Origin: a virus
Length of the DNA: 20,626 nt
IMG/VR virus record: IMGVR_UViG_3300037558_001465
Coordinates: 1 to 20,626 of that record
Strand: one strand, 5' to 3'
The position numbers and the translations under genes were made by a program. The notes under the pieces were generated by a model. The model made no database searches. It was not told the DNA's origin and saw nothing but the letters and a program-made list of their open reading frames with translations. How positions within the stretch are numbered: the first letter of the stretch is position 1; each line of letters starts with the position of its first letter. Below are positions 553 to 20,626 of this stretch, in pieces.

Positions 553-758
553 TGACTCCAGAAGAGAAGGAACTCAAATCAACTTATAATTTTTATGAGG
601 ATACTAAGATGGGTTTCTTTACTAAAGATGGATACGCAGCAGTTCCTTGCGGTAAATCCAAAAGAGTGATAGTATATAAAGGAGAGATCCTACACACATC
701 TCTTAATGATGCCACTGCACGGAATTGGATTGCAAGGCATAGAAAGAAAAGAAAATGA
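549..758 (+). CDS. Small hypothetical protein, basic C-terminus
   Basis: This is a 69-aa protein I do not recognise. It starts inside the stop of the oxygenase gene (ATGA overlap), and its own stop overlaps the next ATG (755) in the same way, so it sits in a coupled chain and is probably real. A second in-frame ATG follows immediately at 552. The N-terminal third is acidic and aromatic (EEKELKSTYNFYED). The C-terminus is strongly basic and ends in RHRKKRK, which could contact nucleic acid or simply be a charged tail. There is no signal peptide, membrane segment or catalytic motif. No function is proposed. Confidence 0.65.
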   Translation: MMTPEEKELKSTYNFYEDTKMGFFTKDGYAAVPCGKSKRVIVYKGEILHTSLNDATARNWIARHRKKRK

Positions 759-1492
759 AAGTATTAGTAACAGGTCACAAAGGTTTCATTGGCAGTCATG
801 TCTTTGATTTTCTCAGTGACATCTTTGATGTTGATGGACTGGACAGACCAGATGACATAGGAGACTTTGCAGACGTTGGATGTGCAGACTATGATCTCAT
901 AGTTCATCTTGCTGCCTATGCTGCACTCAGAGATAGTGTAGATAATCCTGATAAATTCTGGGAGAACAACGTTGAAAAATCTAAACCCATATTTGATTAT
1001 TGTAGAAAGTATGGTACTCGCTTGTTGTATGCAAGTTCTGCTGGTGCATACGGTTGGTGGCAAAATCCTTATGCAATAACAAAGAAAGTAAATGAACTCA
1101 TGGCTCCACCTAATAGTGTGGGTATGAGGTTTTTTAATGTCTGGGCAGAGGAAGGTAGTAGAGATGATATGTTATATGAAATGTTGAAACAAGGAACTGC
1201 AAAGTATATCACAAGACATGAGAGAGATTGGGTTCATGTATTGGATGTTGTCAGAGCGATTGCGACTTTGATTCCTAGTTCATTTACAGGTACGATTGAT
1301 GTTGGAACAGGACATAAAACTTCTGTAATAGAATTGGCCAGTGCCATGGGTATGGGACATCTTCCTATCAAGGAAGACACACCTAATGAACCTGATTCAT
1401 TATGTGCAGATATCATGCCTCTCATGGAGCTCGGTTGGTTTCCAACTGTGAACATTTTGGATACGGTTATTGCGAAAACGGTCAGTGCGTGA
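755..1492 (+). CDS. Short NAD-dependent sugar epimerase/dehydratase (extended SDR)
   Basis: This 245-aa Rossmann-fold protein belongs to the extended short-chain dehydrogenase family acting on nucleotide sugars. The dinucleotide-binding motif G-x-x-G-x-x-G is at residues 7-13 (GHKGFIG). The catalytic Ser is in YASSAGAYG (about 92-100), and Y106-x3-K110 is present in NPYAITKK. It is clearly shorter than the usual 300-350 residues; the loss falls mainly in the C-terminal substrate domain, although GMRFFNVW, an N-V-[WY]-type motif, remains. The substrate cannot be fixed: UDP-hexose 4-epimerase, 4,6-dehydratase and 4-reductase chemistry are all possible. It overlaps the upstream ORF by ATGA and opens the sugar-nucleotide part of the cassette. 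Confidence 0.8.
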   Translation: MKVLVTGHKGFIGSHVFDFLSDIFDVDGLDRPDDIGDFADVGCADYDLIVHLAAYAALRDSVDNPDKFWENNVEKSKPIFDYCRKYGTRLLYASSAGAYGWWQNPYAITKKVNELMAPPNSVGMRFFNVWAEEGSRDDMLYEMLKQGTAKYITRHERDWVHVLDVVRAIATLIPSSFTGTIDVGTGHKTSVIELASAMGMGHLPIKEDTPNEPDSLCADIMPLMELGWFPTVNILDTVIAKTVSA

Positions 1493-1503: not shown

Positions 1504-1537
1504 AGATGAAGTTTATTTCTCAAACTTGTATACAACT

Positions 1538-2593
1538 ATGGATAAGAAGACAGCACTAGTATTGGGTGCAGGTGGCTTCATTGGAAGTCACATGGTAAAA
1601 CGACTACGATCAGAAGGGTATTGGGTTCGTGGCGTTGATATTAAGTACCCCGATTTTTCTATGAGTGCTGCCGATGATTTTGTTCGAGGTGATCTTAGAG
1701 AAGTAGGACTTGTAGCACGAGTCTTAGATGTAGAAGGAGATGCTTTCGATGAGATCTACCAGTTCGCTGCCGATATGGGTGGTGCTGGATATATCTTTAC
1801 AGATGAACACTCCGCTGACATCATGCACAACTCAGCTTCGATCAATCTTAATGTATTGAACGAACAAGTTGCATTGAATAGATTGTTAGATGTAAACAAA
1901 ACTAAAATCTTCTATTCTAGTTCTGCTTGTATGTACCCAGAACATAATCAATTAGATCCAGACAATCCTGATTGTCGTGAAAACTCTGCCTACCCAGCCA
2001 ATCCAGACTCTGAGTATGGATGGGAGAAACTATTTTCAGAGAGATTGTACTTTGCATATGCTCGCAACTACAACCTTGACGTTTCTGTGGCTCGTTATCA
2101 TAACATTTTTGGACCAGAAGGAACATGGGATGGAGGAAAGGAAAAGGCTCCCGCCGCAATCTGTCGTAAGGTCTCACTACTCCCAGAGGTGGGAGGAACG
2201 ATCGAGGTATGGGGTGATGGATTGCAGACGAGATCCTTCCTCTTCATTGATGAGTGTATTGAAGCAACTCGTAGGCTGATTGATTCTGATTTTGCAGGAC
2301 CTGTTAACATTGGTTCTGAAGAAATGGTTACTATCAATCAGTTAGTAGAAACTGCTGCTAAGGTATCAGGTAAGGTTGTTAGAAAGGCACACAAACTCGA
2401 TGCACCTTTGGGTGTCCGTGGACGTAATTCAAACAATGATCTCATTCGTGAGAAACTTGGATGGGATTATTCACAGACTCTTGAAGAAGGTATCTCCAAG
2501 ACTTATGCTTGGATCACTGAACAAATTAAATCTCGTCAACATGGCGTAGTTGAAATTACACCAAAGGTATTGGAACATGCGAAAAGTAACTAA
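1538..2593 (+). CDS. gme: GDP-mannose 3,5-epimerase (GDP-L-galactose forming)
   Basis: An extended SDR enzyme that interconverts GDP-D-mannose with GDP-L-galactose (and GDP-L-gulose). The ATG at 1538 (351 aa) is preferred to an in-frame TTG at 1526, because the protein then begins MDKKTALVLGAGGFIG. Visible are the NAD motif GAGGFIG (10-16), QFAADMGG, SSSACMYP with C131, Y160-x3-K164, and EKAPAAICRK with K203. Compared from memory with Arabidopsis GME (C145, Y174, K178, K217), all four catalytic residues fall at a constant offset of 14. WGDGLQTRSFLFIDEC and the C-terminal GVRGRNSNN block also match the plant/bacterial family. It is full length. It supplies an L-hexose donor that the GT10 and GT11 enzymes downstream could use, since their families use GDP-L-fucose and close analogues. 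Confidence 0.92.
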   Translation: MDKKTALVLGAGGFIGSHMVKRLRSEGYWVRGVDIKYPDFSMSAADDFVRGDLREVGLVARVLDVEGDAFDEIYQFAADMGGAGYIFTDEHSADIMHNSASINLNVLNEQVALNRLLDVNKTKIFYSSSACMYPEHNQLDPDNPDCRENSAYPANPDSEYGWEKLFSERLYFAYARNYNLDVSVARYHNIFGPEGTWDGGKEKAPAAICRKVSLLPEVGGTIEVWGDGLQTRSFLFIDECIEATRRLIDSDFAGPVNIGSEEMVTINQLVETAAKVSGKVVRKAHKLDAPLGVRGRNSNNDLIREKLGWDYSQTLEEGISKTYAWITEQIKSRQHGVVEITPKVLEHAKSN

Positions 2594-3164
2594 GAAAACA
2601 ATTCAACTTGATAAGGATGCAATCAGTAGTCTAGATGTTTCGCATCTTGCAGAACAATCACTCAACCCAAATGACTGGCTCTCTGCTGGTCAGAGTGAAT
2701 ACCGATTGTATTCTTGGTTATCTACACAATTCAATGATTCTATTATCTTAGATGTTGGTACAAGGACAGGTGGTTCTGCCCTTGCACTATCATACAATGA
2801 CAAAAATAGAGTTATTAGTTATGACTTAGTTGAGCAAGGTGCATCAGAAGGAATCAAGAAAGATAATGTCGAGTTTAAGATTCAAGACTTTAGATCGGAT
2901 GACTTGAATTGGGATCATATTTCTATTATAATGATTGATGTTGATCCTCATGATGGAACGGCAGAGGAAGAGATGTTTGAATTTTTAGAAGAGAAAGGTT
3001 GGAAAGGTATTGTTCTCCTAGATGATATTGGACCTCAATGGCCTGAGATCGAGGACTTCTGGAATAGAATTACATATCCTAAGATTAATGTCACTGAGAT
3101 TGGCCACATGAGTGGTACAGGTCTTGTCAATTTTGATGAGAAGCATTCTGTTGATTGGATTTGA
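2577..3164 (+). CDS. Class I SAM-dependent methyltransferase-like protein
   Basis: Starting at the ATG at 2577, 17 nt inside the end of gme, this is a 195-aa protein; an upstream TTG at 2550 would add nine residues with no support. The AdoMet-binding loop is visible as ILDVGTRTGGSALAL (about 57-71), followed by an acidic residue after the second strand (ISYDL), then IIMIDVDPHDG and a GIVLLDDIG strand. This order resembles the Methyltransf_24-type Rossmann methyltransferases often found with glycosyltransferases. The acceptor is unknown; a sugar hydroxyl or phosphorylated sugar intermediate would fit the neighbours. Its stop shares bases with the next start (TGATG), so translation is coupled to the following epimerase. 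Confidence is good for the fold and low for the substrate. Confidence 0.68.
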   Translation: MRKVTKKTIQLDKDAISSLDVSHLAEQSLNPNDWLSAGQSEYRLYSWLSTQFNDSIILDVGTRTGGSALALSYNDKNRVISYDLVEQGASEGIKKDNVEFKIQDFRSDDLNWDHISIIMIDVDPHDGTAEEEMFEFLEEKGWKGIVLLDDIGPQWPEIEDFWNRITYPKINVTEIGHMSGTGLVNFDEKHSVDWI

Positions 3165-4072
3165 TGGAGGTTATTATTTCAAATATGGATTATGAAGACA
3201 TGTATTACGAGACTTTAAAACCTCGTAAGATTTTAGTATTGGGATCGGGTGGTCAAGTTGGAGCATATCTGACTGATTATCTTAATCGTATGGGGAATGA
3301 AGTCCTTGAGTTTGATATCACTAATGGTAGTGAACAGGACATGACAGTCATTCCTAATGGTGAACTTGAAGCCAAAATTTATATGGCAGATTTTGTGTAC
3401 TTCCTCGCCTTTGATGTAGGAGGATCACACTATCTTAAAAAGTATCAACATACTTTTCAGTTCATAGATAATAATACAAGACTGATGGCAAATGCCTTTG
3501 GTCTACTTGAGAAACACAAGAAACCATTTGTCTTTGCATCATCTCAGATGAGTAACATGTCTTACTCTCCTTATGGTGTATTGAAGAGAGTTGGTGAACT
3601 TTATACTAAGTCTCTTGGTGGATTGATTGTCAAGTTCTGGAATGTATATGGTATTGAGAAAGACATGAACAAGGCACATGTCATTACAGATTTCATCCGT
3701 AAAGGGTTTGAGTCTGGTGATATAGATATGATGACAGACGGAACTGAAGCGAGGGAATTTCTTTATGCGGAGGACTGTTGTGAGGCGTTGGAGACTGTTA
3801 TGGAGACATACCACGATCTCTGTTCTGACGATGAACTTCATATTACTACTGGTGTTTATACAACTGTGTTGGAGATTGCGTCTGAAATTAAGTTATTATT
3901 TTCGGGTATTGGCAAGGAGATCACGGTTACTCCAGCACAGTCGAAGGATGAAGTGCAAAAGGATGCTAGGAACGTTCCCGACCCATTCATCCAGAAGTTT
4001 TGGAACCCCAAAACATCGGTTCCAGAAGGTTTGAAAAAAGTATTTGAGGAGATGAGGAAAGACTATGAATAA
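3164..4072 (+). CDS. NAD-dependent sugar epimerase/dehydratase (third SDR)
   Basis: A 302-aa extended SDR when started at the ATG at 3164, which shares the A of the preceding TGA. A TTG at 3155 is possible but unnecessary, and an ATG at 3185 lies 14 nt after a GGAGG, so the exact start is uncertain. The Rossmann motif GSGGQVG is at 27-33, the SS pair at about 126-127 (FASSQMS), and Y137-x3-K141 in YGVLK. VKFWNVYG and AREFLYAEDC are typical of nucleotide-sugar epimerase/dehydratases. It diverges from gme and from the short SDR at 755, so it probably does a different step in the same sugar pathway. The product sugar cannot be assigned. Confidence 0.8.
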   Translation: MEVIISNMDYEDMYYETLKPRKILVLGSGGQVGAYLTDYLNRMGNEVLEFDITNGSEQDMTVIPNGELEAKIYMADFVYFLAFDVGGSHYLKKYQHTFQFIDNNTRLMANAFGLLEKHKKPFVFASSQMSNMSYSPYGVLKRVGELYTKSLGGLIVKFWNVYGIEKDMNKAHVITDFIRKGFESGDIDMMTDGTEAREFLYAEDCCEALETVMETYHDLCSDDELHITTGVYTTVLEIASEIKLLFSGIGKEITVTPAQSKDEVQKDARNVPDPFIQKFWNPKTSVPEGLKKVFEEMRKDYE

Positions 4073-5042
4073 GTATGATGCTGAGGCAGCAGCACTGAGA
4101 GAGGCAGTTGATAAAGCCAAGAAGAGTCCTACAGGAATGGACTTTCCTGTTCTAGGACCTGACTCAAAATTTCCTATCAATCTTTATTGTAATGATTCAT
4201 TAGAACCATCTACTTCGGCAAACAATAGGTCGGTTTACACTAGATGGATTCGTAACGGAACTGGTCTAGTAAATCTCTATGTGAATGGGGAGGCACTAAA
4301 AGTCTTGGAGGACACCAGCGATAACCCAAAGTTTATCTGGTTGTTAGAGTCAAGGGAAATTATTCCAGAACAGTATAAATTCATAGAAGAGAATTATGAT
4401 TTTGTTGCTAGTCGGGTTGATGGGATCTTTACTGCTGATCAGAGACTAACGAATGAGAGTGGCGCAGATGGCAAATTTCTCTATTGTTTATCTAATGCTG
4501 CTCCTTGGGTCATGGATAGGGCAGTCTATAAGAAGTCAAAACTTGTCTCAATGGTCGCATCTAACAAAGGATATACTCTAGGACATCAACGTCGCCTTAA
4601 AGTTGTAGAATCTTACTTCAAAAAACAAGGTGGTGATGATTTATTTGGTTGGGGATTACCCCAAGAGTTACCACTGACAGAAAAGTCAAGAGCATTGAGA
4701 GATTATATGTTCTCTTTTGCAGTAGAAAATGCAAACTATCCAACTTACTTTACGGAGAAGTTGACAGATTGTTTTGCGTGTGGAACTATTCCAGTCTATT
4801 ATGGAACTGTTGGAGTAGCACAATACTTCAATCCAGAAGGTATCATCTTCCTAGATGAGAAAACACCTTGGGAGAATATTCCTTGGGATAAACTCACACC
4901 AGAGTATTATGAATCCAAGAAAGATGTAATACAAGAAAACTTTGAGACTGCTCAGTGCATGAGAGTCGCAGAGGATTACATGTATGGAAACTACTTTGCA
5001 CAACTAGACCCACTTAGAAATCAGAAACCACAATTAACATGA
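4065..5042 (+). CDS. GT10-family (fucosyltransferase-like) glycosyltransferase
   Basis: A 325-aa GT-B glycosyltransferase. The GT10 hallmark lies at 218-247, FAVENANYPTYFTEKLTD followed by CGTIPVYYG: the E-N pair, Y-x-TEK and the G-x-x-P-V-Y-x-G loop that binds the GDP-sugar. An upstream block, SMVASNKGYTLGHQRR (about 162-177), matches the S-N-K...R region of the same family. GT10 enzymes transfer L-fucose from GDP-L-fucose in alpha-1,3/1,4 linkage. No GDP-fucose synthase is visible in this window, but a GDP-L-galactose-forming epimerase lies just upstream, so the donor could be GDP-L-galactose or host-made GDP-fucose. The start overlaps the upstream gene by 8 nt and the stop overlaps the next ATG (ATGA). 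There is no signal peptide or membrane segment, so it should act in the cytosol. Confidence 0.82.
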   Translation: MNKYDAEAAALREAVDKAKKSPTGMDFPVLGPDSKFPINLYCNDSLEPSTSANNRSVYTRWIRNGTGLVNLYVNGEALKVLEDTSDNPKFIWLLESREIIPEQYKFIEENYDFVASRVDGIFTADQRLTNESGADGKFLYCLSNAAPWVMDRAVYKKSKLVSMVASNKGYTLGHQRRLKVVESYFKKQGGDDLFGWGLPQELPLTEKSRALRDYMFSFAVENANYPTYFTEKLTDCFACGTIPVYYGTVGVAQYFNPEGIIFLDEKTPWENIPWDKLTPEYYESKKDVIQENFETAQCMRVAEDYMYGNYFAQLDPLRNQKPQLT

Positions 5043-5851
5043 GTGAAATCATTGACGTATCTGCCACTGCTGTTCAAGATGATCGCAGCGGATGGCAAGC
5101 AGAAGATCAAATCGCTGTAGAATATCTTGAAGCATGTAAGGAAGCAGTTGCATCTGATGATGCCTTTGCAAACTTCAAATCCAATCCAAAGTACAAAACT
5201 ATTCTAGAACATGTACTCAAGGATCAAGGACAGGCATATCTAAACATCTGTAAGGATATGAATGAGGATGCCGTATGGGATAACCTTGAGTCATTCAAGG
5301 AGAATGACAAGATTGGTAATCCAGAACTGTATCCGTATCCAGGCATGACTGGTACAATATCTCCTACAACTCTTAGGTATATGAAGAATACTTTTGAGAT
5401 GGGATTCTTACTTGATGGTGCTGAAGTTGGTAAGGTTGTTGAAGTAGGTGGTGGATATGGTGGACTCTGTAGAGTCTTGAGTAAAGTGTGTGAGTTTGAT
5501 CAATATATTTTGATCGACTTACCAGAAGTATCTGCCTTGCAGAGAAAATATCTAGATCAGTTTGAAGATCTGAAAGATAAGGTAACATGTATTCCATGTA
5601 CAGAGTACGAAGAGATTAAAGATGTAGATTTATTCATCAGTAACTACGCTCTATCCGAGTGTGATCTTCCTACACAGATGGCATATTACGATAAGGTTAT
5701 TACTAATTCAAAATATGTTTATATGATATACAACCTTGTCAACTTTAATGAATTCTATTATAATGATTTCATTGAGAAGATCAAAAAAGATTACACCTTT
5801 GATACAGGTCGTGATTATGAAAACACTGTCATTCTAGCCACTAGAAAATGA
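5039..5851 (+). CDS. Putative sugar O-methyltransferase
   Basis: A 270-aa protein with the features of the bacterial putative sugar O-methyltransferase family. The glycine-rich AdoMet loop VEVGGGYGGLCRVLSK spans about 134-149, followed by YILIDLPEVSALQRKYL (156-172), in which the D-L-P-E motif is diagnostic. ISNYALSEC (about 200-208) and MIYNLVNF further on also fit. Family members are found in O-antigen and capsule loci, where they methylate sugar hydroxyls. The N-terminal 110 residues are mostly helical and include PGMTGTISPTTLRYM, also typical. Start and stop both overlap neighbours by ATGA, linking it to the GT10 and NAD synthetase genes. It would cap or modify the glycan built by this cassette. 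Confidence 0.78.
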   Translation: MSEIIDVSATAVQDDRSGWQAEDQIAVEYLEACKEAVASDDAFANFKSNPKYKTILEHVLKDQGQAYLNICKDMNEDAVWDNLESFKENDKIGNPELYPYPGMTGTISPTTLRYMKNTFEMGFLLDGAEVGKVVEVGGGYGGLCRVLSKVCEFDQYILIDLPEVSALQRKYLDQFEDLKDKVTCIPCTEYEEIKDVDLFISNYALSECDLPTQMAYYDKVITNSKYVYMIYNLVNFNEFYYNDFIEKIKKDYTFDTGRDYENTVILATRK

Positions 5852-6609
5852 ATCGAATCAAAGATTATAAATCACTCACCATTGATATGGTTGGGTGGTT
5901 GTGCAAATATACACACACAAATAATATTAATAGTTTTGTAGTAGGAGTGTCTGGTGGAATTGATTCTGCTGTTGCTTCTACTCTTGCAGTAAAAACAGGT
6001 AAACCGACTTACCTTGTAGGTATGCCATTGAATCAAAACAAAGAACAAGAAACTCTATCCGATGCACACATGTATTGGTTAAGTTCAATGTATCCTAATG
6101 TGAAAATTCTAAAAGCAGATCTATCAGAATCCTATGCTAAACTTATGTCTGATTTGACAAGTGAGGTAGGTGTGGAGTATACTGGTAATCCAATGGCGAA
6201 AGCCAATACTAAATCCAGACTACGGATGGTGACACTATATCATGTCGCTGCCAATGTGGGTGGTATAGTGGTTGGAACAGGAAACAAAGTGGAGGACTAT
6301 GGAGTCGGTTTTTATACTAAGTATGGTGATGGTGGGGTTGACATTGCTCCGATTGCGGACCTTTATAAATCAGAAGTCAGAGAGCTCGGAAGAGAACTCG
6401 GAGTGATTACTGAGATCATCAATGCAACTCCTACAGATGGACTGTGGGAGGATGGTAGAAACGATGAAGACCAGATTGGTGCTTCATACGAACAACTAGA
6501 AGAGGCAATGGAAACTGGTGCAGGTCCTGCCTTAGAAATCTTGAACAGATTTAATGCCCAAAACAAACATAAAATGGATCCTATCCCAACGTACAAATTA
6601 GAGGTTTAA
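5848..6609 (+). CDS. nadE: Ammonia-dependent NAD synthetase (NadE-like), synthetase domain only
   Basis: A 253-aa N-type ATP pyrophosphatase. The P-loop is SGGIDS (35-40). MPLNQNKEQ (59-67), KANTKSRLRM (118-127) and VVGTGNKVEDYGVGF (141-155) follow, then TKYGDGG (157-163), the segment that shapes the deamido-NAD site in NAD synthetases. The reaction is ATP-dependent adenylation of the nicotinate carboxylate of deamido-NAD and amidation with ammonia. The length matches NH3-dependent enzymes; there is no fused glutaminase domain, but a separate nitrilase-fold protein lies at 8621. The products could replenish NAD+ for the sugar dehydrogenase and SDR enzymes around it. Alternatively, the same chemistry could amidate a uronic acid. 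Conservation of the TKYGDGG block favours true NAD synthesis. The start overlaps the upstream stop (ATGA). Confidence 0.88.
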   Translation: MNRIKDYKSLTIDMVGWLCKYTHTNNINSFVVGVSGGIDSAVASTLAVKTGKPTYLVGMPLNQNKEQETLSDAHMYWLSSMYPNVKILKADLSESYAKLMSDLTSEVGVEYTGNPMAKANTKSRLRMVTLYHVAANVGGIVVGTGNKVEDYGVGFYTKYGDGGVDIAPIADLYKSEVRELGRELGVITEIINATPTDGLWEDGRNDEDQIGASYEQLEEAMETGAGPALEILNRFNAQNKHKMDPIPTYKLEV

Positions 6610-6616
6610 TTTCACA

Positions 6617-7768
6617 ATGAAAATCGGTGTTATCGGTGCTGGAAGACTTGGCATTTGTTTTGCCCTGCTTGCAGAGTCCGCTGGTCATGATGTATATGTT
6701 TCTGACATAAACCCAAGTTATGTCAATAAACTTACCGCTAAAGAACTTTATAGTAATGAACCAGAGGTAGAAGATCTTTTACTTCGATCAACAAAACTTA
6801 GAGCAACTACTAGTAATATTGATGTTATAAAATCTTCTGATGTTATCTTTACCTTTGTTCCTACGCCATCTCTAGAAGATGGTAGTTACGATTGTAGTTT
6901 AGTTGATGAAGTGGTGTCTGATCTAATTAGATCTCCTAATTTAGAGGGTAAGAAATTTATTGTTGGATGCACAACCAATCCAGGCTTTGTTGATAAGGTA
7001 GACAAAACATTGGAGGATAGAGGTATAAGTGTATTCTATAGTCCTGAGTTTGTTGCACAGGGAACAATTATCAGAGACATGAGAAATGCAGATATGATTC
7101 TGTGTGGTGGCAATGATGAGGAAGGATTTGAACTTATCAAATCAATCTACTGTGGAATCATGGATAGAGATGTAGACTTCTACCCCATGTCTAATACTGC
7201 TGCAGAGATTACTAAGATTGGTATTAATTGTTTCCTTACATATAAGATCAGTTATGCTAACATGATGGGTCAGATTCTATACAATTCTGGGTGTGGTGAT
7301 GAGATCAAAAACGTTCTATCATCTATCGGACAGGACAGTAGGATTGGGTCTAAATATTTGAACTATGGTTTAGGTTTCGGAGGTCCTTGTCTGCCCCGTG
7401 ACAACCGTGCTTTAGGACACTATGCTGATAAGGTTGGTCTTAAGTATAGTCTTCCTCAAGTAACTGATGATTTCAATGAAGCACATGCAGAGTTCATTAA
7501 GAACTACTGTGTAGAAAGAAATGTAGACGGACTACCTTTCTTTATTGATAGTATTGGTTACAAGATAGGATGTGATCTTATAGTTGAAAGTCCACGACTT
7601 AGACTAGTAGAAGATCTTTTAAAGGATGGTCACACGGTATATGTTCAAGAGATTGATGCTGTTGTTGATGAATATAGCGAGGAACTAGAAGAAGATTATG
7701 GCGATAGTCTTATCTTCGTCAAGAACTATAATGAAATACATGAGAAGACATGGAGGATTGACCTTTGA
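6617..7768 (+). CDS. UDP-glucose/GDP-mannose 6-dehydrogenase family protein
   Basis: A 383-aa nucleotide-sugar dehydrogenase that oxidises C6 of a UDP- or GDP-hexose twice, giving a uronic acid with 2 NAD+ consumed. The N-terminal Rossmann motif is GAGRLG (7-12), with acidic D30 following. FTFVPTPS (78-85), SPEFVAQGTIIRDM (142-155) and AAEITKIGIN (195-204, with E197, K200 and N204) are standard. GFGGPCLPRD (253-262) contains the catalytic C258. The C-terminal domain (from about 305) is present but short, ending soon after the SPRLRLVEDLLKDG helix. Sequence does not separate UDP-glucose from GDP-mannose as substrate; the nearby GDP-mannose epimerase makes a GDP sugar plausible. There are only 7 nt to nadE upstream, and the stop overlaps the TTG start of the next gene. 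Confidence 0.88.
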   Translation: MKIGVIGAGRLGICFALLAESAGHDVYVSDINPSYVNKLTAKELYSNEPEVEDLLLRSTKLRATTSNIDVIKSSDVIFTFVPTPSLEDGSYDCSLVDEVVSDLIRSPNLEGKKFIVGCTTNPGFVDKVDKTLEDRGISVFYSPEFVAQGTIIRDMRNADMILCGGNDEEGFELIKSIYCGIMDRDVDFYPMSNTAAEITKIGINCFLTYKISYANMMGQILYNSGCGDEIKNVLSSIGQDSRIGSKYLNYGLGFGGPCLPRDNRALGHYADKVGLKYSLPQVTDDFNEAHAEFIKNYCVERNVDGLPFFIDSIGYKIGCDLIVESPRLRLVEDLLKDGHTVYVQEIDAVVDEYSEELEEDYGDSLIFVKNYNEIHEKTWRIDL

Positions 7769-8619
7769 CGATTAGTTATAATCGCCTCGGTAGTAATGGT
7801 AGACTTGGAAACCAAATGTTCCAGTATGCCTCACTCAGAGGAATCGCAAATTATAATCAGTATCAGTGGATGATTCCACCACCTGACTGCAATCATAAAG
7901 ATAATTATGGATTGTTTGATACCTTTGAAATGAAGCATGTAAAACCTGAGAATCTTGGGTTCAATGATGCCATGACAGTAAAAGAATCTACACATGCTTT
8001 TGATGAAGGATTATTTTATTGTACAGATGGTGTCAATATAGATGCCTATCTACAGACAGAAGATTACTTTGTACACATTGCAGATCAGATCCTTGAAGAT
8101 TTCACTTTTAAGAAAGATGTTCTCGAACCTTGTACTGCTTACATCAATAGTTTGGATAGCCCTCCTATTTTTCTTCACATTAGACAGTCTGACAACATCG
8201 GAAGAGAAGAATTCCATCCCATCCTCCCGCTATCATATTTTGAGACTGCGTTAGAATTTTGGAGTCCTGATACTCCATGCTTTGTATTCACAGATGATAT
8301 TGATTGGTGTAAGAAACAATCATTCTTTGAGAACGATAGGTTTATCTTCAATGATAATCCTGAGAGATATGAATATCAAACTATTGATGGCACAGGACAG
8401 ATGCAGAATACTCTTCTGCCTCAGGTTGATCTATGTTTGATGAGTCTTTGTTCTGGTGCAATCATTGCTAACAGTTCATTCAGTTGGTGGGGTGCATGGT
8501 TGCAAAGGGATAGGGGTAAAGTCATCGCCCCTGATCCAGAGAAGTGGTATGGTTCTGCCATGTCACACTTAGATACAAGTATGATGGTTCCTGCCCGTTG
8601 GCAGACACACTATTGGTAA
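7765..8619 (+). CDS. GT11-family glycosyltransferase, copy 1 (TTG start)
   Basis: A 284-aa member of GT11 (alpha-1,2-fucosyltransferase type). LGNQMFQYASLRG (14-26) is the N-terminal signature and NSSFSWWGAWL (236-246) the C-terminal one. The donor-binding loop, normally H-x-R-R-G-D, reads H138-I-R140-Q-S-D143, so the second Arg and Gly are replaced. The start is TTG at 7765, four bases overlapping the upstream TGA, with a GGAGGA at 7752-7757 at good spacing. The next ATG lies inside the LGNQMFQY signature and would destroy it, so TTG is well supported. The first of three paralogues, placed at 7765, 9466 and 11215. The donor is presumably GDP-L-fucose or a related L-sugar; the acceptor is unknown. 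Confidence 0.85.
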   Translation: MTISYNRLGSNGRLGNQMFQYASLRGIANYNQYQWMIPPPDCNHKDNYGLFDTFEMKHVKPENLGFNDAMTVKESTHAFDEGLFYCTDGVNIDAYLQTEDYFVHIADQILEDFTFKKDVLEPCTAYINSLDSPPIFLHIRQSDNIGREEFHPILPLSYFETALEFWSPDTPCFVFTDDIDWCKKQSFFENDRFIFNDNPERYEYQTIDGTGQMQNTLLPQVDLCLMSLCSGAIIANSSFSWWGAWLQRDRGKVIAPDPEKWYGSAMSHLDTSMMVPARWQTHYW

Positions 8620-8620
8620 C

Positions 8621-9466
8621 ATGAGAATTGCAGGGGCTCAGATTCCTGTTGGTTCTAATATTCAATCTAATAAGATAGAGATATTAAAATCATTAGATTG
8701 GGCTAAACAAAATGCAGTTGATCACCTCCTAACACCAGAGGGTGCTTTATCTGGATACTGTAATGGTTGGCAAGATAAAGATGAAGAATTGAAAGATGCT
8801 CTTAAAGAAATAGAACAACACAATACTGGAGTTGGACTACACTTAGGAACATTATTCAAAGAAAAAGAACACATTGGTTTGATTCATAGAAATCAAATCA
8901 GACATTATGATAAGTCTGGAAAATTGAATACAATAACTCATAAGACTTATTGTATTCCCTCAGACTACTGCTTGGGTAGATTAGAAACTGATCCCATAAG
9001 ATATTTTTACTTAGATTCTCTTCCTGTTGTTGGGATGGTATGTAATGATATGTGGGGCAGTTCAGAAGAGATGGGTATTGCTTTTTGTGAGAGACATCTT
9101 GTGGATAGAAATTTATCTATTATATTTCACGCTACTAATGGTATGAAATGGAATAGAAATGATAAAAGGAATGATGCTTTTAGTGGTTATAGTGAGGGGT
9201 TCCTCAGAATGACTGCTTTCAAAAGTAAATCAACTATCATTACTGTTGACTCTTGTGTTCCTTGGAGTTGGAATGGTAATGAAGATCTTATAGATCAATC
9301 AATTACTTCCACTCCAAGTGGTGTTATAAATTTTCTAGGATGGCAGAAAACTGTACCTAGATATGGTAGACAATTCTTCTATTATGACTTAGAATCAAAT
9401 GATGAGTTTAAGAATTATGATGGTCGAATGTCTGATGAGTATCCCTACATTAAATTGATTAAATAA
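8621..9466 (+). CDS. Carbon-nitrogen hydrolase (nitrilase superfamily), possible glutaminase partner of NadE
   Basis: A 281-aa nitrilase-fold protein with the Glu-Lys-Cys triad: E40 in LLTPEGALSGY, K108 in HKTYCIPSD, C141 in VGMVCNDMWG. These enzymes hydrolyse amides or nitriles; in glutamine-dependent NAD synthetases the same fold is the N-terminal glutaminase that feeds ammonia to the synthetase domain. Here it is a separate gene three genes after nadE, so together they could form a split glutamine-dependent enzyme. Other options are a stand-alone amidase acting on a sugar amide, a nitrilase, or an N-carbamoyl hydrolase. It starts 1 nt after the previous stop, and its TAATG end couples it to the second GT11 gene. 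There is no signal peptide. Confidence 0.8.
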   Translation: MRIAGAQIPVGSNIQSNKIEILKSLDWAKQNAVDHLLTPEGALSGYCNGWQDKDEELKDALKEIEQHNTGVGLHLGTLFKEKEHIGLIHRNQIRHYDKSGKLNTITHKTYCIPSDYCLGRLETDPIRYFYLDSLPVVGMVCNDMWGSSEEMGIAFCERHLVDRNLSIIFHATNGMKWNRNDKRNDAFSGYSEGFLRMTAFKSKSTIITVDSCVPWSWNGNEDLIDQSITSTPSGVINFLGWQKTVPRYGRQFFYYDLESNDEFKNYDGRMSDEYPYIKLIK

Positions 9467-10392
9467 TGGCTATTTCATTTCAAGGATTAGGTAACGAAGG
9501 TAGACTTGGGAATCAAATGTTCCAGTATGCTTTTGTAAGAGGTGTTGCTGCACACCGTGGGTTTAATTGGGTAGTACCAGGCCCAAATGCAGATAGGTTA
9601 GACAACTATGGTTTGTTTGATGCCTTTGAATTGAGTGGTTGTCTCCCAGAGAATCAGGGAGAACCATTCTTTGCTAAACAGGAAGTCTATAGAGACATGG
9701 CTTTCAATGAGAAGATCTATAATGAGTGTGAAGACAACACTAACTTCTCTGGTAATTTTCAGACAGAATATTATTTTGAAAGTATCTCTGCCGACATTAG
9801 ACATGACTTTACATTCAAGAAAGAATATCTAGAACCATGTCAAGAATTTATTGATGGGAATGGTGGACAAGATAATAATATCTTCCTACATGTTCGCAGA
9901 GGTAATCCTAATGTGACAGGCAGAAGAGGAGAGAAATGGTCTTATCAAATGGTGCAAGAGTATCATCCTATTTGTAAGAAAGAATATTACATTCAGGCAC
10001 TATCAAAGTTTCCAGAAGATAAGAATGTTGTAGTTGTTTCTGATACTATTGATTGGTGTAAGGAACAAGAATGGTTACAGGGGGATAGATTCCTGTTCTC
10101 TGATGCCTCGTATGAGGAGTTTGGAGATGGTGCATCTGTACCATACATTGATCTCTGTCTTATGACACTATGCGGTGGTGGTATCATTGCTAACTCATCA
10201 TTATCATGGTGGGGTGCATGGTTGCAGAAAGGTGGAGATAAGATGGGTAAAAACTCTATCCAAAGACACTGGCAAGTTGTTGCCCCCGATCCTTGGTTTG
10301 GAATTAAGTATGACATGTATGACATGAGCGATTTGATTCCTCCACGTTGGGTTAAATTACATAATGATCCATCATATATTGAACCAGAATAA
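9466..10392 (+). CDS. GT11-family glycosyltransferase, copy 2
   Basis: A 308-aa paralogue of the GT11 enzymes at 7765 and 11215, the longest of the three. LGNQMFQYAFVRG (14-26) and NSSLSWWGAWLQKGG carry the family signatures. The donor loop reads H142-V-R144-R-G-N147, so the Asp of H-x-R-R-G-D is Asn. After the WWGAW motif there is an insert (DKMGKNSIQRHWQ) absent from copy 3. It starts in a TAATG junction with the nitrilase gene and ends in a TAATG junction with the next glycosyltransferase, giving tight coupling. The role is presumed addition of an L-fucose-type sugar from a GDP donor. Divergence among the three copies suggests different acceptors or donors rather than a recent duplication. 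Confidence 0.86.
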   Translation: MAISFQGLGNEGRLGNQMFQYAFVRGVAAHRGFNWVVPGPNADRLDNYGLFDAFELSGCLPENQGEPFFAKQEVYRDMAFNEKIYNECEDNTNFSGNFQTEYYFESISADIRHDFTFKKEYLEPCQEFIDGNGGQDNNIFLHVRRGNPNVTGRRGEKWSYQMVQEYHPICKKEYYIQALSKFPEDKNVVVVSDTIDWCKEQEWLQGDRFLFSDASYEEFGDGASVPYIDLCLMTLCGGGIIANSSLSWWGAWLQKGGDKMGKNSIQRHWQVVAPDPWFGIKYDMYDMSDLIPPRWVKLHNDPSYIEPE

Positions 10393-11228
10393 TGAAAGAC
10401 CTCACCTACCTACTTCCATGTAGGATTGAGACAGAAGATAGACTTCGTAATGTTATTACTTCTGTTACCTATATCTTAAAATGTTTCCCCGAAGCAAAGA
10501 TTATTGTTAAAGAAGTTGACACTCAATCACACTTTAGTGAGAGTGCTTTACCTCGTATTAAAAATTATGTAAAGGACACATCACAACTCAAACATGTTTT
10601 TGAACAGAGTACCGAGACGTTCTTTCATAAAACTAGAATCCTTAATGACCTATGTGTTCTCGCTGACACTCCCATCATTTATAATCATGATGTGGACGTT
10701 GTTGTTCCGAAGAACTCACATGAACTTGCTCACCGTGCCATCACGAGGGAAGGATCTGATGCTGTCTATCCTTTCGGATGTGGTATCTATCAGTGGGCAG
10801 TAACTTATTCTGATCAACTATTGGATAATTTTCTATCATCACATGATGGATCTGATGCTGACTTTGAAGTTCTGAAAGATGCTAAAGTTAGGATTCCGTC
10901 GTCTATTGGATGGGGTCAGATGATAACTAAAACCGCAGAAGTATCTGCTGGACTATGGAATGAAGAATTTATCTCATGGGGTGCAGAAGATTGTGAGTTT
11001 TATTACAGACTAAATCTTTTTGGATTTAAAGTTGGCAGAGTTATTGATGACATCTACCACTTTGAACACGGTAGAACATTCAATTCACACTACCACAATC
11101 CTAAGTTTCAAGACAACGATAGATTGTGGAACTGGATTAGGACTCAAGATAAAGAGTCCGTTACACAATATTATTCAAAACTAGACTACATCAAACGTAG
11201 GGGGGAAGAACTAAATGCTGGCCTTTAA
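10392..11228 (+). CDS. GT-A glycosyltransferase with GT7-like C-terminal motif
   Basis: A 278-aa protein with the layout of a GT-A fold nucleotide-sugar transferase. It begins with TYLLPCRIETEDRLRNV, like the N-terminal strand of GT2-type enzymes. A D-x-D-type metal motif is seen in YNHDVDVVVP (D100, D102), and SWGAEDCEFYYRL (195-207) matches the G-W-G-x-E-D block of galactosyltransferase (GT7 C-terminal) and chondroitin-polymerase-type enzymes, where the E-D pair is catalytic. FEHGRT near residue 222 would bind metal through His. The sugar specificity is not readable. It sits between GT11 copies 2 and 3; the next gene starts 14 nt before its end behind a strong GGGGG-rich ribosome binding site. 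It probably extends the same glycan. Confidence 0.75.
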   Translation: MKDLTYLLPCRIETEDRLRNVITSVTYILKCFPEAKIIVKEVDTQSHFSESALPRIKNYVKDTSQLKHVFEQSTETFFHKTRILNDLCVLADTPIIYNHDVDVVVPKNSHELAHRAITREGSDAVYPFGCGIYQWAVTYSDQLLDNFLSSHDGSDADFEVLKDAKVRIPSSIGWGQMITKTAEVSAGLWNEEFISWGAEDCEFYYRLNLFGFKVGRVIDDIYHFEHGRTFNSHYHNPKFQDNDRLWNWIRTQDKESVTQYYSKLDYIKRRGEELNAGL

Positions 11229-12140: not shown

Positions 12141-12650
12141 ATGGAACGTAATCTAATTGTAATAGATAATTTTTTAGATGACCCAGACAGGATAAGGTTT
12201 CATGCCTTATCCTTAGATTATGATAGGATTCAAAAATCTGTGCCAGGTGTCAGATCAAATACTGCTTTGGGTGGTGATCTACAGACAGAGGTAGAGACCA
12301 AACTAAAGACTACTCTCGGAGGAGAGATAGTATGGGATTGGACACAGGATAGTTTTTGTTTTCAATCATGCCAAGAAGGAACAGAAACTTGGGTTCATGT
12401 TGATAGTCAGGGAGAAGATCAAGGAGAGTGGGCAGCAGTATTATATCTGACTCCCAATCCTATTCTTGATTCTGGAACTGCTATCTATCAGTCTCCCGAT
12501 AGTGATATGAATATCGGTGTAGGAAATATTTACAATAGACTGGTTGCGTATCGCGGCAAAGTGTTGTATCATAGAAGTATAGTTCCTGGCTTCGGGAACA
12601 CATTAGAAACAAGTAGACTCACACAAACATTCTTTTTCGATGTCAAATAA
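12141..12650 (+). CDS. Putative 2OG-Fe(II) oxygenase-fold protein
   Basis: A 169-aa protein with a probable double-stranded beta-helix. WVHVDSQ supplies H86-x-D88, followed by WAAVLYLTPNP and SGTAIY. Then NRLVAYRGKVLYHRSI supplies H144 as the distal iron ligand, and SRLTQTFFF supplies R159, the expected 2-oxoglutarate contact. The order H-x-D ... H ... R and the spacing fit Fe(II)/2-oxoglutarate dioxygenases, of the group that modifies small molecules or amino-acid residues. The protein starts with VIDNFLDDPDRIRFHAL, a typical opening of this group. The substrate is unknown; sugar or lipid hydroxylation would suit the neighbours. A weak AGG precedes the ATG. The stop overlaps the GT25 start by 11 nt. 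Confidence 0.66.
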   Translation: MERNLIVIDNFLDDPDRIRFHALSLDYDRIQKSVPGVRSNTALGGDLQTEVETKLKTTLGGEIVWDWTQDSFCFQSCQEGTETWVHVDSQGEDQGEWAAVLYLTPNPILDSGTAIYQSPDSDMNIGVGNIYNRLVAYRGKVLYHRSIVPGFGNTLETSRLTQTFFFDVK

Positions 12651-13446
12651 AGCCGCATACAAACTTAAAGGATTCGGTCCTCTTTACATTATTAATCTGG
12701 ATGAACAGCCAGAGAGAATGGAGTGGATGTCAAATCAACTTAAGGAATGGGAGATAGAAAACTATACTCGTATCTCTGCATACGATGGTAGACCCTCTAC
12801 AGGGGATGATCTAAGTGATATATTAACTGGTAAGTATCCAGATAGTATTACTGCTGGAGAGATAGGATGTGTAACATCACACCTCAAAGCACTCAAACAT
12901 TTTGTTGAAGAGACTGATGAACCCTATGCAATCATCATGGAAGATGATTGTGATATTAGTATCGCACAGTTCTGGACATTTACATGGAGACAATTCATCT
13001 CTAGGATGCCATACGACTGGGATACAGTCCAAGTTGCAGTAATTTGCCCTGGCGAATTACATGTACAGGTTCATCGTAGATTTATTAATGACTTTTCTAC
13101 TGCATGTTATGTAATAACTAGACATCATGCTCAGAAACTATTGAAACTTCATGTCAGAGGAGAGAAATACAAACTCGACAATGGCGTGAAACCCAGACCT
13201 GTCGCTGATGACCTGATCTACAACTCAGGTGCAGCTTATGCCTGTCCTGTCTTCCTATACAAGATCGAACTAGGTTCCTCAATCCATGAGGAACACATTG
13301 AGGTCTTCCATAGGGGTAGTCACGATGGTCTCAGAGAACTCTGGAATACAAGAGGTGGGGATATCACCATTGATATGTTATCCGATTTTGATCCTTATCT
13401 AGGTAGGATCGCTGGTGGTGATCCCAGAAATCAAGGTCAGGGATAA
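12640..13446 (+). CDS. GT25-family glycosyltransferase
   Basis: A 268-aa protein of the LPS glycosyltransferase family GT25. LYIINLDEQPERMEWM (15-30) is the family's opening motif. AGEIGCVTSHLKAL (72-85) and AIIMEDDCDIS (98-107), with the acidic E-D-D, follow in the right order and spacing. Bacterial GT25 members add galactose or other sugars to lipooligosaccharide. The protein ends soon after DPYLGRIAGGD. It overlaps the oxygenase gene by 11 nt and closes the glycan block; the promoter for the next transcript starts 8 nt after its stop. Confidence 0.85.
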   Translation: MSNKAAYKLKGFGPLYIINLDEQPERMEWMSNQLKEWEIENYTRISAYDGRPSTGDDLSDILTGKYPDSITAGEIGCVTSHLKALKHFVEETDEPYAIIMEDDCDISIAQFWTFTWRQFISRMPYDWDTVQVAVICPGELHVQVHRRFINDFSTACYVITRHHAQKLLKLHVRGEKYKLDNGVKPRPVADDLIYNSGAAYACPVFLYKIELGSSIHEEHIEVFHRGSHDGLRELWNTRGGDITIDMLSDFDPYLGRIAGGDPRNQGQG

Positions 13447-20102: not shown

Positions 20103-20626
20103 ATGTTGAAGTCACTTCTTTACGACGATTATTCAGTGCCCTTGGGTAAAAGGGTAAAGGATTTTGATGTCAAGGTAACTAACATACAGTGTGTGAGAGA
20201 TTTTATAGAGTCATGGCACTACTCTAAGAGTGTCAATGGACTCAGAATATCTCATGTGTTTGGACTTTACTGTGACTCTACCTTGATAGGTGCAATGATA
20301 TATGGTCCTCTAGGTATGGCAAATGCGTGGAGGAAGTATGGAGAGAGTGAGAGTGATGTCATTGAACTCAGGAGACTATGTTGTATTGATGCCACTCCCA
20401 AATGCACTGAGAGTTACTTCATAGGAAAGACTCAGAGGTGGTTGAAAAAGAACACCGACCACAAGATCATCGTGTCCTATGCAGACGCATTTCACGGTCA
20501 CAGAGGGGTCATATACAAGGCAACTAACTTCAAACATGAGGGGTTAACTTCGCCAGGCAGACTCATACAGTACGGTGATAAAACTTATCATGATAAGGCA
20601 ATCAGAACAAAGTATAAGAATAAATT
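20103..20626 (+). CDS. Mom-like DNA-modification acyltransferase (3'-truncated by window edge)
   Basis: The frame is open from ATG 20103 to the window end (174 codons plus two bases). The translated part begins MLKSLLYDDYSVPLGKRV and contains ESWHYSKSV (36-44), FGLYCDSTLIGAMIYGP (53-69), IELRRLCCID (87-96), TESYFIGKTQRWLKK (102-116) and SYADAFHGHRGVIYKA (125-140). This order, with H-Y-S near the start, E-L-R-R-L, E-S-x-F-I-G and SYAD-x-x-x-GHxGxIYxA-x-NF, is what I know from phage Mom-related proteins, GNAT-fold enzymes that modify adenine in phage DNA (phage Mu Mom adds a carbamoylmethyl group). Such modification blocks restriction enzymes. It could instead be another GNAT-like phage protein of unknown target. 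There is no Shine-Dalgarno site; the ATG lies at the predicted transcription start. Confidence 0.55.
   Translation, partial: MLKSLLYDDYSVPLGKRVKDFDVKVTNIQCVRDFIESWHYSKSVNGLRISHVFGLYCDSTLIGAMIYGPLGMANAWRKYGESESDVIELRRLCCIDATPKCTESYFIGKTQRWLKKNTDHKIIVSYADAFHGHRGVIYKATNFKHEGLTSPGRLIQYGDKTYHDKAIRTKYKNK

Follow-up and report, generated by a model that had tools for sequence, protein, structure and literature searches.

Phage NAD-synthetase homologues paired with nucleotide-sugar dehydrogenases: candidate enzymes for uronic acid amidation

Introduction

Why should a gene for an enzyme of the NAD synthetase family reside among the glycan genes of a phage? The question is raised by the IMG/VR virus record IMGVR_UViG_3300037558_001465, whose positions 1 to 20,626 (20,626 nucleotides, hereafter the window) are a cyanophage-like fragment that carries a glycan cassette and psbA- and psbD-like reading frames, the latter named by eye from the sequence. 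Within the cassette, nadE is followed by a gene for a nucleotide-sugar 6-dehydrogenase and, beyond a glycosyltransferase gene, by one for a nitrilase-fold protein. The original prediction described these three genes and considered two roles for them, either a split glutamine-dependent NAD synthetase that serves the dehydrogenase, or a repurposed NadE-nitrilase pair that amidates a uronic acid. All three open reading frames (ORFs) are present on the plus strand as described (Table 1).

We find that the constant partner of nadE is the dehydrogenase, and that the nitrilase is an optional extra amidase and not a required subunit. The best explanation, which we hold at a probability of about 0.45, is that the phage NadE amidates the hexuronic acid, probably GDP-linked, that is made by the paired dehydrogenase.

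Association of nadE with a sugar dehydrogenase

The window NadE belongs to the NadE sequence family, as it scores 156.8 bits against PF02540 (cut-off 21) and 165 bits against TIGR00552 (cut-off 63.65). The neighbouring protein matches PF03721 and PF00984 in Pfam and scores 210 bits against TIGR03026 (cut-off 189.8), and with its active-site cysteine motif GGPCLPRD it is recognised as a nucleotide-sugar 6-dehydrogenase. It is short, and a Pfam search at 1e-3 does not pick up the nucleotide-binding domain expected at its C terminus (PF03720).

In every one of the best 80 IMG/VR loci, a dehydrogenase gene is located on the same strand no more than 1746 bp downstream of nadE, and in 63 of them at most 50 bp separate the two genes. 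The two genes also adjoin in all nine named records (S-SSM7, Sf-FS3, Bellamy, P-TIM68, S-SCSM2R, HTVC008M, LR756502, AG-341-P01 and AG-345-E15). Thus, the predicted co-occurrence of nadE with a sugar dehydrogenase in the glycan cassettes of other phages is borne out. No dehydrogenase is found beside nadE in any of 80 cellular relatives whose NadE is 45-55% identical (Fisher p 2e-47 for 80/80 versus 0/80, among loci that are related to one another). Genes were sought inside the locus stretches, some of which are ended by contig ends; 69 of the 80 cellular loci have at least 2 kb on both sides. The viral scan kept its best 80 loci, as did the genome scan, which used the patterns PTDGLW[DE]D and GTGNKVED, and both favour close kin. 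The nearness of the two genes is kept far beyond chance.

A phage collection holds 45 records with a NadE match, and all 15 at 44.8% identity or above also have a dehydrogenase match, which is found in none of the 30 records at 40.5% identity or below. Among more distant viral NadE proteins, 33 of 69 loci are dehydrogenase-linked. The 159 viral rows correspond to about 154 records, given that L026/L348, L028/L346, L030/L345 and L031/L343 are duplicated and that L290 is HTVC008M. In addition, one locus counted as unlinked (L347) is cut off 333 bp beyond nadE, and its score resembles those of the linked clade.

When the search is anchored on the dehydrogenase, 58 of the 80 loci with the window's type contain nadE, compared with 16 of the 80 from the scan for the other type. 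Both gene orders are represented among the 58, with nadE first in 21 and the dehydrogenase first in 37. Within the close clade, nadE therefore goes with the dehydrogenase and the dehydrogenase often occurs without nadE, as a later pathway step would give. An asparagine-synthase-like substitute, as in a WbpS-type uronamide synthetase, was sought by an N-terminal motif and is seen in none of 160 dehydrogenase loci. The literature searches made turned up no paper that ties NAD synthetase to this kind of dehydrogenase in phages or to the amidation of uronic acids.

Annotation names vary, and the S-SSM7 dehydrogenase is a 'hypothetical protein' in one record. Conversely, P-TIM68 gp170 (L005, 3650-4084) is labelled 'NAD synthetase' and matches the SegE GIY-YIG endonuclease family PF19835 (E 6.6e-55). 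Wrong labels of this kind may have entered the counts given for cyanophage NAD synthetases.

Repeated origin of the pair

A NadE tree was made from 118 rows after thinning (48 linked, 50 cellular and 20 other viral) with an E. coli outgroup, whose branch is very long. On this tree, the link to a dehydrogenase needs six changes, at least three of which are forced by starred branches (quick method). The partner type changes seven times, among GGPC[LF]PRD, GG[AG]CHPRD and one further variant. The tree thus indicates that the nadE-dehydrogenase link arose more than once.

One possibility is that the pairing reflects the hitch-hiking of cassette genes and has no functional meaning. Phage glycan cassettes get shuffled, and the top 80 viral loci are mutually related. 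Even so, the repeated origin, the two dehydrogenase types, the occurrence of both gene orders and the tight spacing in most of the close loci argue against this explanation, which we consider quite improbable.

Fusions are seen in two loci. The nadE of L310 shares one reading frame with an upstream partner that other viral loci carry as a separate cassette gene, and this N-terminal domain has no profile similarity to the GT10-type protein of the window. In L311, nadE is fused in frame ahead of an extra domain. Each fusion was seen in one contig only and might stem from misassembly.

The cellular relatives of the phage NadE are apparently housekeeping enzymes, as judged from their distribution. 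For 14 of the 15 genomes compared, the relative is the only strong full-length PF02540 match. A match is present in 142 of 148 genomes from the order to which a Muriicola genome belongs, some of them as small as about 0.6 Mb. Of 147 genomes from the order of a Pelagibacteraceae genome, 81 have the single-domain form, 10 have a match in a frame of 553-565 amino acids and 56 are without a match at E 1e-20. A second match is found in none of these 147 genomes; in the Muriicola order it occurs in 4 of 148, as a distinct gene in one case (G005) and as a fragment or partial match in the other three.

Cellular relatives of the window dehydrogenase are 30-33% identical, and at E 1e-40 they occur in 6 of 289 and 3 of 246 genomes. 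Since GGPCFPRD is present in five of these nine relatives, this motif is not specific to nadE partners. The dehydrogenases of four control phage records carry GGSCFPKD, GGYCFPKD or GGHCIPLD.

The nitrilase-fold protein

Neither Pfam nor NCBIfam gives a match to the nitrilase-like protein at 1e-3, and the only PHROG that it hits has no annotated function. However, its AlphaFold2 model (mean pLDDT 89.1) retrieves nitrilase-superfamily structures with Foldseek at a best E of 1e-14. The catalytic triad E40-K108-C141, which had been predicted to be intact, is invariant in both alignments of relatives (9 of 9 and 20 of 20 sequences). Fold and triad together place the protein in the nitrilase superfamily.

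A split glutamine-dependent NAD synthetase, in which the nitrilase would feed ammonia to NadE as in the type C enzymes of De Ingeniis et al., gains some plausibility from Sf-FS3, where the same cassette has the same order (nadE, dehydrogenase, GT11 and nitrilase), and from the match of the nitrilase model to NadE glutaminase domains. The model fits amidases and carbamoylases at least as well. The nadE gene is present in only 8 of 80 viral nitrilase loci, and a nitrilase match is present in only one of 15 phage records with a window-like nadE (Sf-FS3) and, within the stretch covered, in 5 of 80 close nadE loci. Nine phage records carry a nitrilase, and Sf-FS3 is the only one of them that has nadE. 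There is no nitrilase in the whole genome of S-SSM7, whose NadE is 91% identical, and P-SSM2 carries two nitrilases and is not among the nadE records.

In two-subunit NAD synthetases, the synthetase bears a distinctive extended loop at its C terminus, as described by De Ingeniis et al. 2012 (PMC3376133). The phage NadE ends about 10 residues past HKM without such a loop, as judged from our alignment and not by the method of those authors, and it has no conserved clustered glutaminase subunit. We therefore find the split enzyme scarcely credible, and it is on co-occurrence that we set it aside. The same counts (8/80 and 1/15) speak against the nitrilase as one half of an amidating pair with NadE, so that neither role originally proposed for this protein is upheld.

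Many viral nitrilase loci without nadE contain two or three nitrilase genes in tandem. Three-gene arrays, without nadE in the stretch covered, are found in L226, L229, L230, L233, L237, L239, L240, L242, L243, L251 and L253.

NAD salvage genes and the supply of NAD

If phage nadE occurred mostly with salvage genes and without sugar genes, the proposed tie to sugar chemistry would fail. In this clade the opposite is seen. A PncB, PncA or NadD match is found near none of the 123 linked viral nadE loci, versus 6 of 36 unlinked loci (p 1e-4). Three of the six, L335, L340 and L351, supplied the sequences for the salvage models, and about four of the six are independent, as L336 and L341 share coordinates with L335 and L340. 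Nicotinate phosphoribosyltransferase (NAPRTase) is absent from seven of eight linked phage records that were searched whole.

In L335, L336, L340, L341 and L351, nadE lies near a nicotinate phosphoribosyltransferase gene, in some cases with a nicotinamidase-like or NadD-like gene. These are apparent phage NAD-salvage sets. In two other viral loci, a 4Fe-4S ferredoxin-like gene directly follows nadE (L301, 6755-7078, by Pfam; L352, 6747-7067, by eye).

These observations bear on the main rival explanation, by which NadE keeps its ordinary job and converts deamido-NAD (NaAD) to NAD+ for the cassette dehydrogenase. Dehydrogenases of this family use NAD+. Consistent with this explanation, the phage proteins retain the NadE motifs, the presumed NaAD contacts and nearly all positions that are invariant in unlinked NadE, and each cellular relative seems to be the principal NadE of its genome. 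However, the dehydrogenase reduces NAD+ without consuming it, and by established chemistry a last-step synthetase does not regenerate NAD+. Salvage matches are missing near all 123 linked loci and NAPRTase is missing from all but one of the eight records, and the 80 cellular relatives, all without a dehydrogenase beside nadE, show no such arrangement. Nor does NAD supply explain why one NAD enzyme follows one sugar enzyme. We thus see it as a serious contender that falls well short of an even chance.

Sequence and structure of the phage NadE

The sequence favours an intact NadE. The SGGxDS ATP motif and the presumed residues for Mg and NaAD are all present in the window protein. TKYGDGG is invariant in 10 aligned phage NadE proteins, in agreement with the motif conservation noted from the sequence at the outset. 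In 24 aligned viral rows, S35-G37, D39, S40, R124, T144, E149, K158, D165, K174, T196, H241 and K242 are invariant. These include R124, K158, D165 and H241-K242, which we take to be the curated deamido-NAD contacts of NadE, so that the suggested check of these contacts finds each of them intact. In our alignment, F155 corresponds to the nicotinate-stacking residue of the human enzyme, Tyr525 (PMC6946656), and an aromatic residue is thus retained.

An active-site switch was sought by aligning linked with unlinked NadE and was not found. The comparison used positions at least 97% invariant across 70 unlinked NadE proteins. All 35 rows of the cyanophage clade carry F151Y and S167A, the two HTVC008M-clade rows both depart from P60, and six further near-invariant positions vary in some linked rows. 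Nearly every invariant position is otherwise kept.

By both sequence and fold of the NadE model, the best solved relative is 3fiu, the nicotinamide mononucleotide (NMN) synthetase of F. tularensis. The model has pLDDT below 50 at residues 159-162, within the KYGDGG loop. The F. tularensis enzyme is a NadE homologue reported to have a changed substrate (PMC3376133), and therefore motif conservation alone leaves the substrate of the phage NadE unsettled.

This relationship also suggests that the phage protein could itself be an NMN synthetase of the Francisella kind, which converts nicotinate mononucleotide to NMN and acts with a phage NMNAT-like protein such as that reported in cyanophage virions (PMC9602691). 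However, the candidate cytidyltransferase genes are located about 16 kb (P-TIM68) and about 43 kb (S-SSM7) from nadE, and although the P-TIM68 candidate exceeds the PF01467 cut-off (43 bits), that of S-SSM7 does not (18.3 bits). In addition, 3fiu is perhaps merely the nearest solved sequence, and the dehydrogenase link would be unexplained. We regard this function as improbable.

The S-SSM7 candidate (NC_015287.1, 160865-162247) is annotated 'Cytidyltransferase', and is possibly akin to the NMNAT-like virion protein of S-SCSM1.

Identity of the sugar

The cassette includes a protein that matches the plant GDP-mannose 3,5-epimerase 2c59 along most of its length (282.5 bits, residues 11-337) and that we accordingly class as a homologue by sequence. 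Relatives of this protein in the loci were recognised by the motif AADMGG only. An ORF with this motif is found in 68 of 93 GGPCxPRD nadE loci versus none of 22 GGxCHPRD nadE loci (p 7e-11); the motif is also found in two GGxCHPRD loci of the dehydrogenase scan. Among 15 phage records searched whole, an epimerase homologue is present in 10 and is absent from HTVC008M, LR756502 and three unlinked records. In Bellamy and AG-345-E15, which have the other dehydrogenase type, it lies away from nadE. The best solved relative of that other type (GGxCHPRD) is a GDP-mannose 6-dehydrogenase. For S-SCSM1, genes for GDP-mannose-3,5-epimerase and mannose-6-phosphate isomerase are named (PMC9602691). Together these features suggest that the sugar is probably GDP-linked.

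Four cellular dehydrogenase neighbourhoods were fetched; the ORF calls of one (L406) are unreliable, and the results come from L408 and L409. In L409 (4172-8065, from the class of the Pelagibacteraceae genome), a GGPCFPRD dehydrogenase is flanked by an AADMGG epimerase and by a mannose-1-phosphate guanylyltransferase-like gene, as seen by eye. In L408 no epimerase was recognised by eye.

A proposed uronamide module

We propose that nadE and the dehydrogenase gene together constitute a phage module that makes a single building block of a glycan. The dehydrogenase would oxidise a nucleotide hexose at C6 to a hexuronic acid; its substrate is probably a GDP-hexose supplied through the GDP-mannose 3,5-epimerase homologue of the cassette. 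The NadE-family enzyme would then adenylate the hexuronate carboxylate with ATP and use ammonia to form a uronamide, which the cassette glycosyltransferases would transfer. Amidation would account for the pairing, its repeated origin, the absent salvage genes and the one-way dependence of nadE on the dehydrogenase. More tentatively still, phages may repeatedly have turned a housekeeping NadE into a carboxylate amidator at the end of a route from GDP-mannose by 3,5-epimerisation, C6 oxidation and amidation to a GDP-hexuronamide. Like NaAD, a GDP-hexuronate has a purine nucleoside, a diphosphate and a carboxylate on a ring, and the old NaAD contacts could therefore stay in place.

Several observations weigh against amidation. 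The presumed deamido-NAD contacts and F155 do not vary across the 24 rows, as genuine NaAD binding would demand, and none of the changes relative to the 70 unlinked proteins is fixed in two or more linked NadE clades. LR756502 has NAPRTase elsewhere in the record, and cyanophages carry cytidylyltransferase-like proteins, one of which is reported as an NMNAT in S-SCSM1 virions (PMC9602691). The nearest PDB relative of the window dehydrogenase is a UDP-glucose enzyme, while the gene found in its company encodes a GDP-mannose 3,5-epimerase homologue. The fused N-terminal domain of L310 and C-terminal domain of L311 have no convincing family match (no Pfam match, and a chance-level PHROG match for L310 only). 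A cellular glycan cluster with a nadE-dehydrogenase pair was not found in the 80 cellular neighbourhoods, which leave out cyanobacterial hosts. Separately, a review table (PMC10452541) lists NAD synthetase in 24 of 153 cyanophages, among photosynthesis and carbon-metabolism genes, and UDP-glucose 6-dehydrogenase in 1 of 153, which does not fit the pairing, although the names used in annotation vary from record to record.

Other features of the window

The window has further cassette genes around the pair (Table 1). A frame at 20103-20624, which runs off the window end, matches the Mom protein family PF25680 (E 7.8e-31), to which the DNA-modification protein Mom of phage Mu belongs. A much longer contig (L018/L210, IMGVR_UViG_3300020438_000007, 230,739 bp) encodes NadE, nitrilase and epimerase proteins 100% identical to those of the window, and on this identity it probably represents the same virus.

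Table 1. Genes of the glycan cassette in the window
Feature	Coordinates	Strand	Basis and remarks
NAD-dependent epimerase/dehydratase	755..1492	+	Pfam, PHROG
GDP-mannose 3,5-epimerase homologue	1526..2593	+	Best PDB match 2c59; co-occurs with the window's dehydrogenase type
NAD-dependent epimerase/dehydratase	3155..4072	+	Pfam, PHROG
GT10-type glycosyltransferase	4065..5042	+	PF00852
Probable methyltransferase	5039..5851	+	Weak, below cut-off; methyltransferase annotated at the equivalent position in S-SSM7 and Sf-FS3
nadE, single-domain NAD-synthetase family protein, 253 aa	5848..6609	+	Pfam, NCBIfam, structure; proposed uronate-amidating enzyme
Nucleotide-sugar 6-dehydrogenase, GGPC[LF]PRD type, 383 aa	6617..7768	+	Starts 7 bp after nadE
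GT11-type glycosyltransferase	7765..8619	+	PF01531
Nitrilase-superfamily protein, E40-K108-C141 triad	8621..9466	+	Optional passenger, outside the conserved pair
Galactosyltransferase-like glycosyltransferase	10392..11228	+	PF02709, 24.1 bits (cut-off 23)
GT25 glycosyltransferase	12640..13446	+	PF01755

Comparison with known systems and implications

The phage NadE resembles the type N ammonia-dependent NadE (PF02540, TIGR00552; PMC3376133) in sequence, fold, motifs and its single domain without a conserved glutaminase partner. It differs in its place beside a sugar dehydrogenase in a glycan cassette, in the lack of a nearby salvage gene and in its fusion in two contigs. The F. tularensis NMN synthetase, the closest solved structure, shows that NadE can change substrate. 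However, that enzyme works in NAD synthesis, and its P2 loop (PSAGLWQGQ) differs from that of the window NadE (PTDGLWEDG). The phage NAD-salvage sets (L335, L340 and L351) also include viral NadE homologues, but there NadE is near PncB, in some cases with PncA- or NadD-like genes, and no dehydrogenase is found in the stretch covered.

Two other systems are comparable by product or chemistry. WbpS-type amidotransferases such as PGN_1234 of P. gingivalis share the proposed product type, the uronamide of an oxidised sugar, but are described as members of an asparagine-synthase-like family (PMC7468200), whereas the phage enzyme is of the NadE family. The C-terminal domain of Cj1438 of C. jejuni likewise forms an amide on glucuronic acid with ATP in capsule synthesis. 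However, it joins serinol or ethanolamine phosphate once the sugar is on the chain, and the account of it (PMC11800379) states, as far as it bears on this domain, no link to NadE.

If the phage NadE amidates sugar acids, the enzyme belongs to glycan synthesis and would represent a new enzyme class for the formation of uronamides. If it makes NAD+ instead, then a cofactor enzyme tracks one NAD-using enzyme across distant phages, which would be likewise unexplained.

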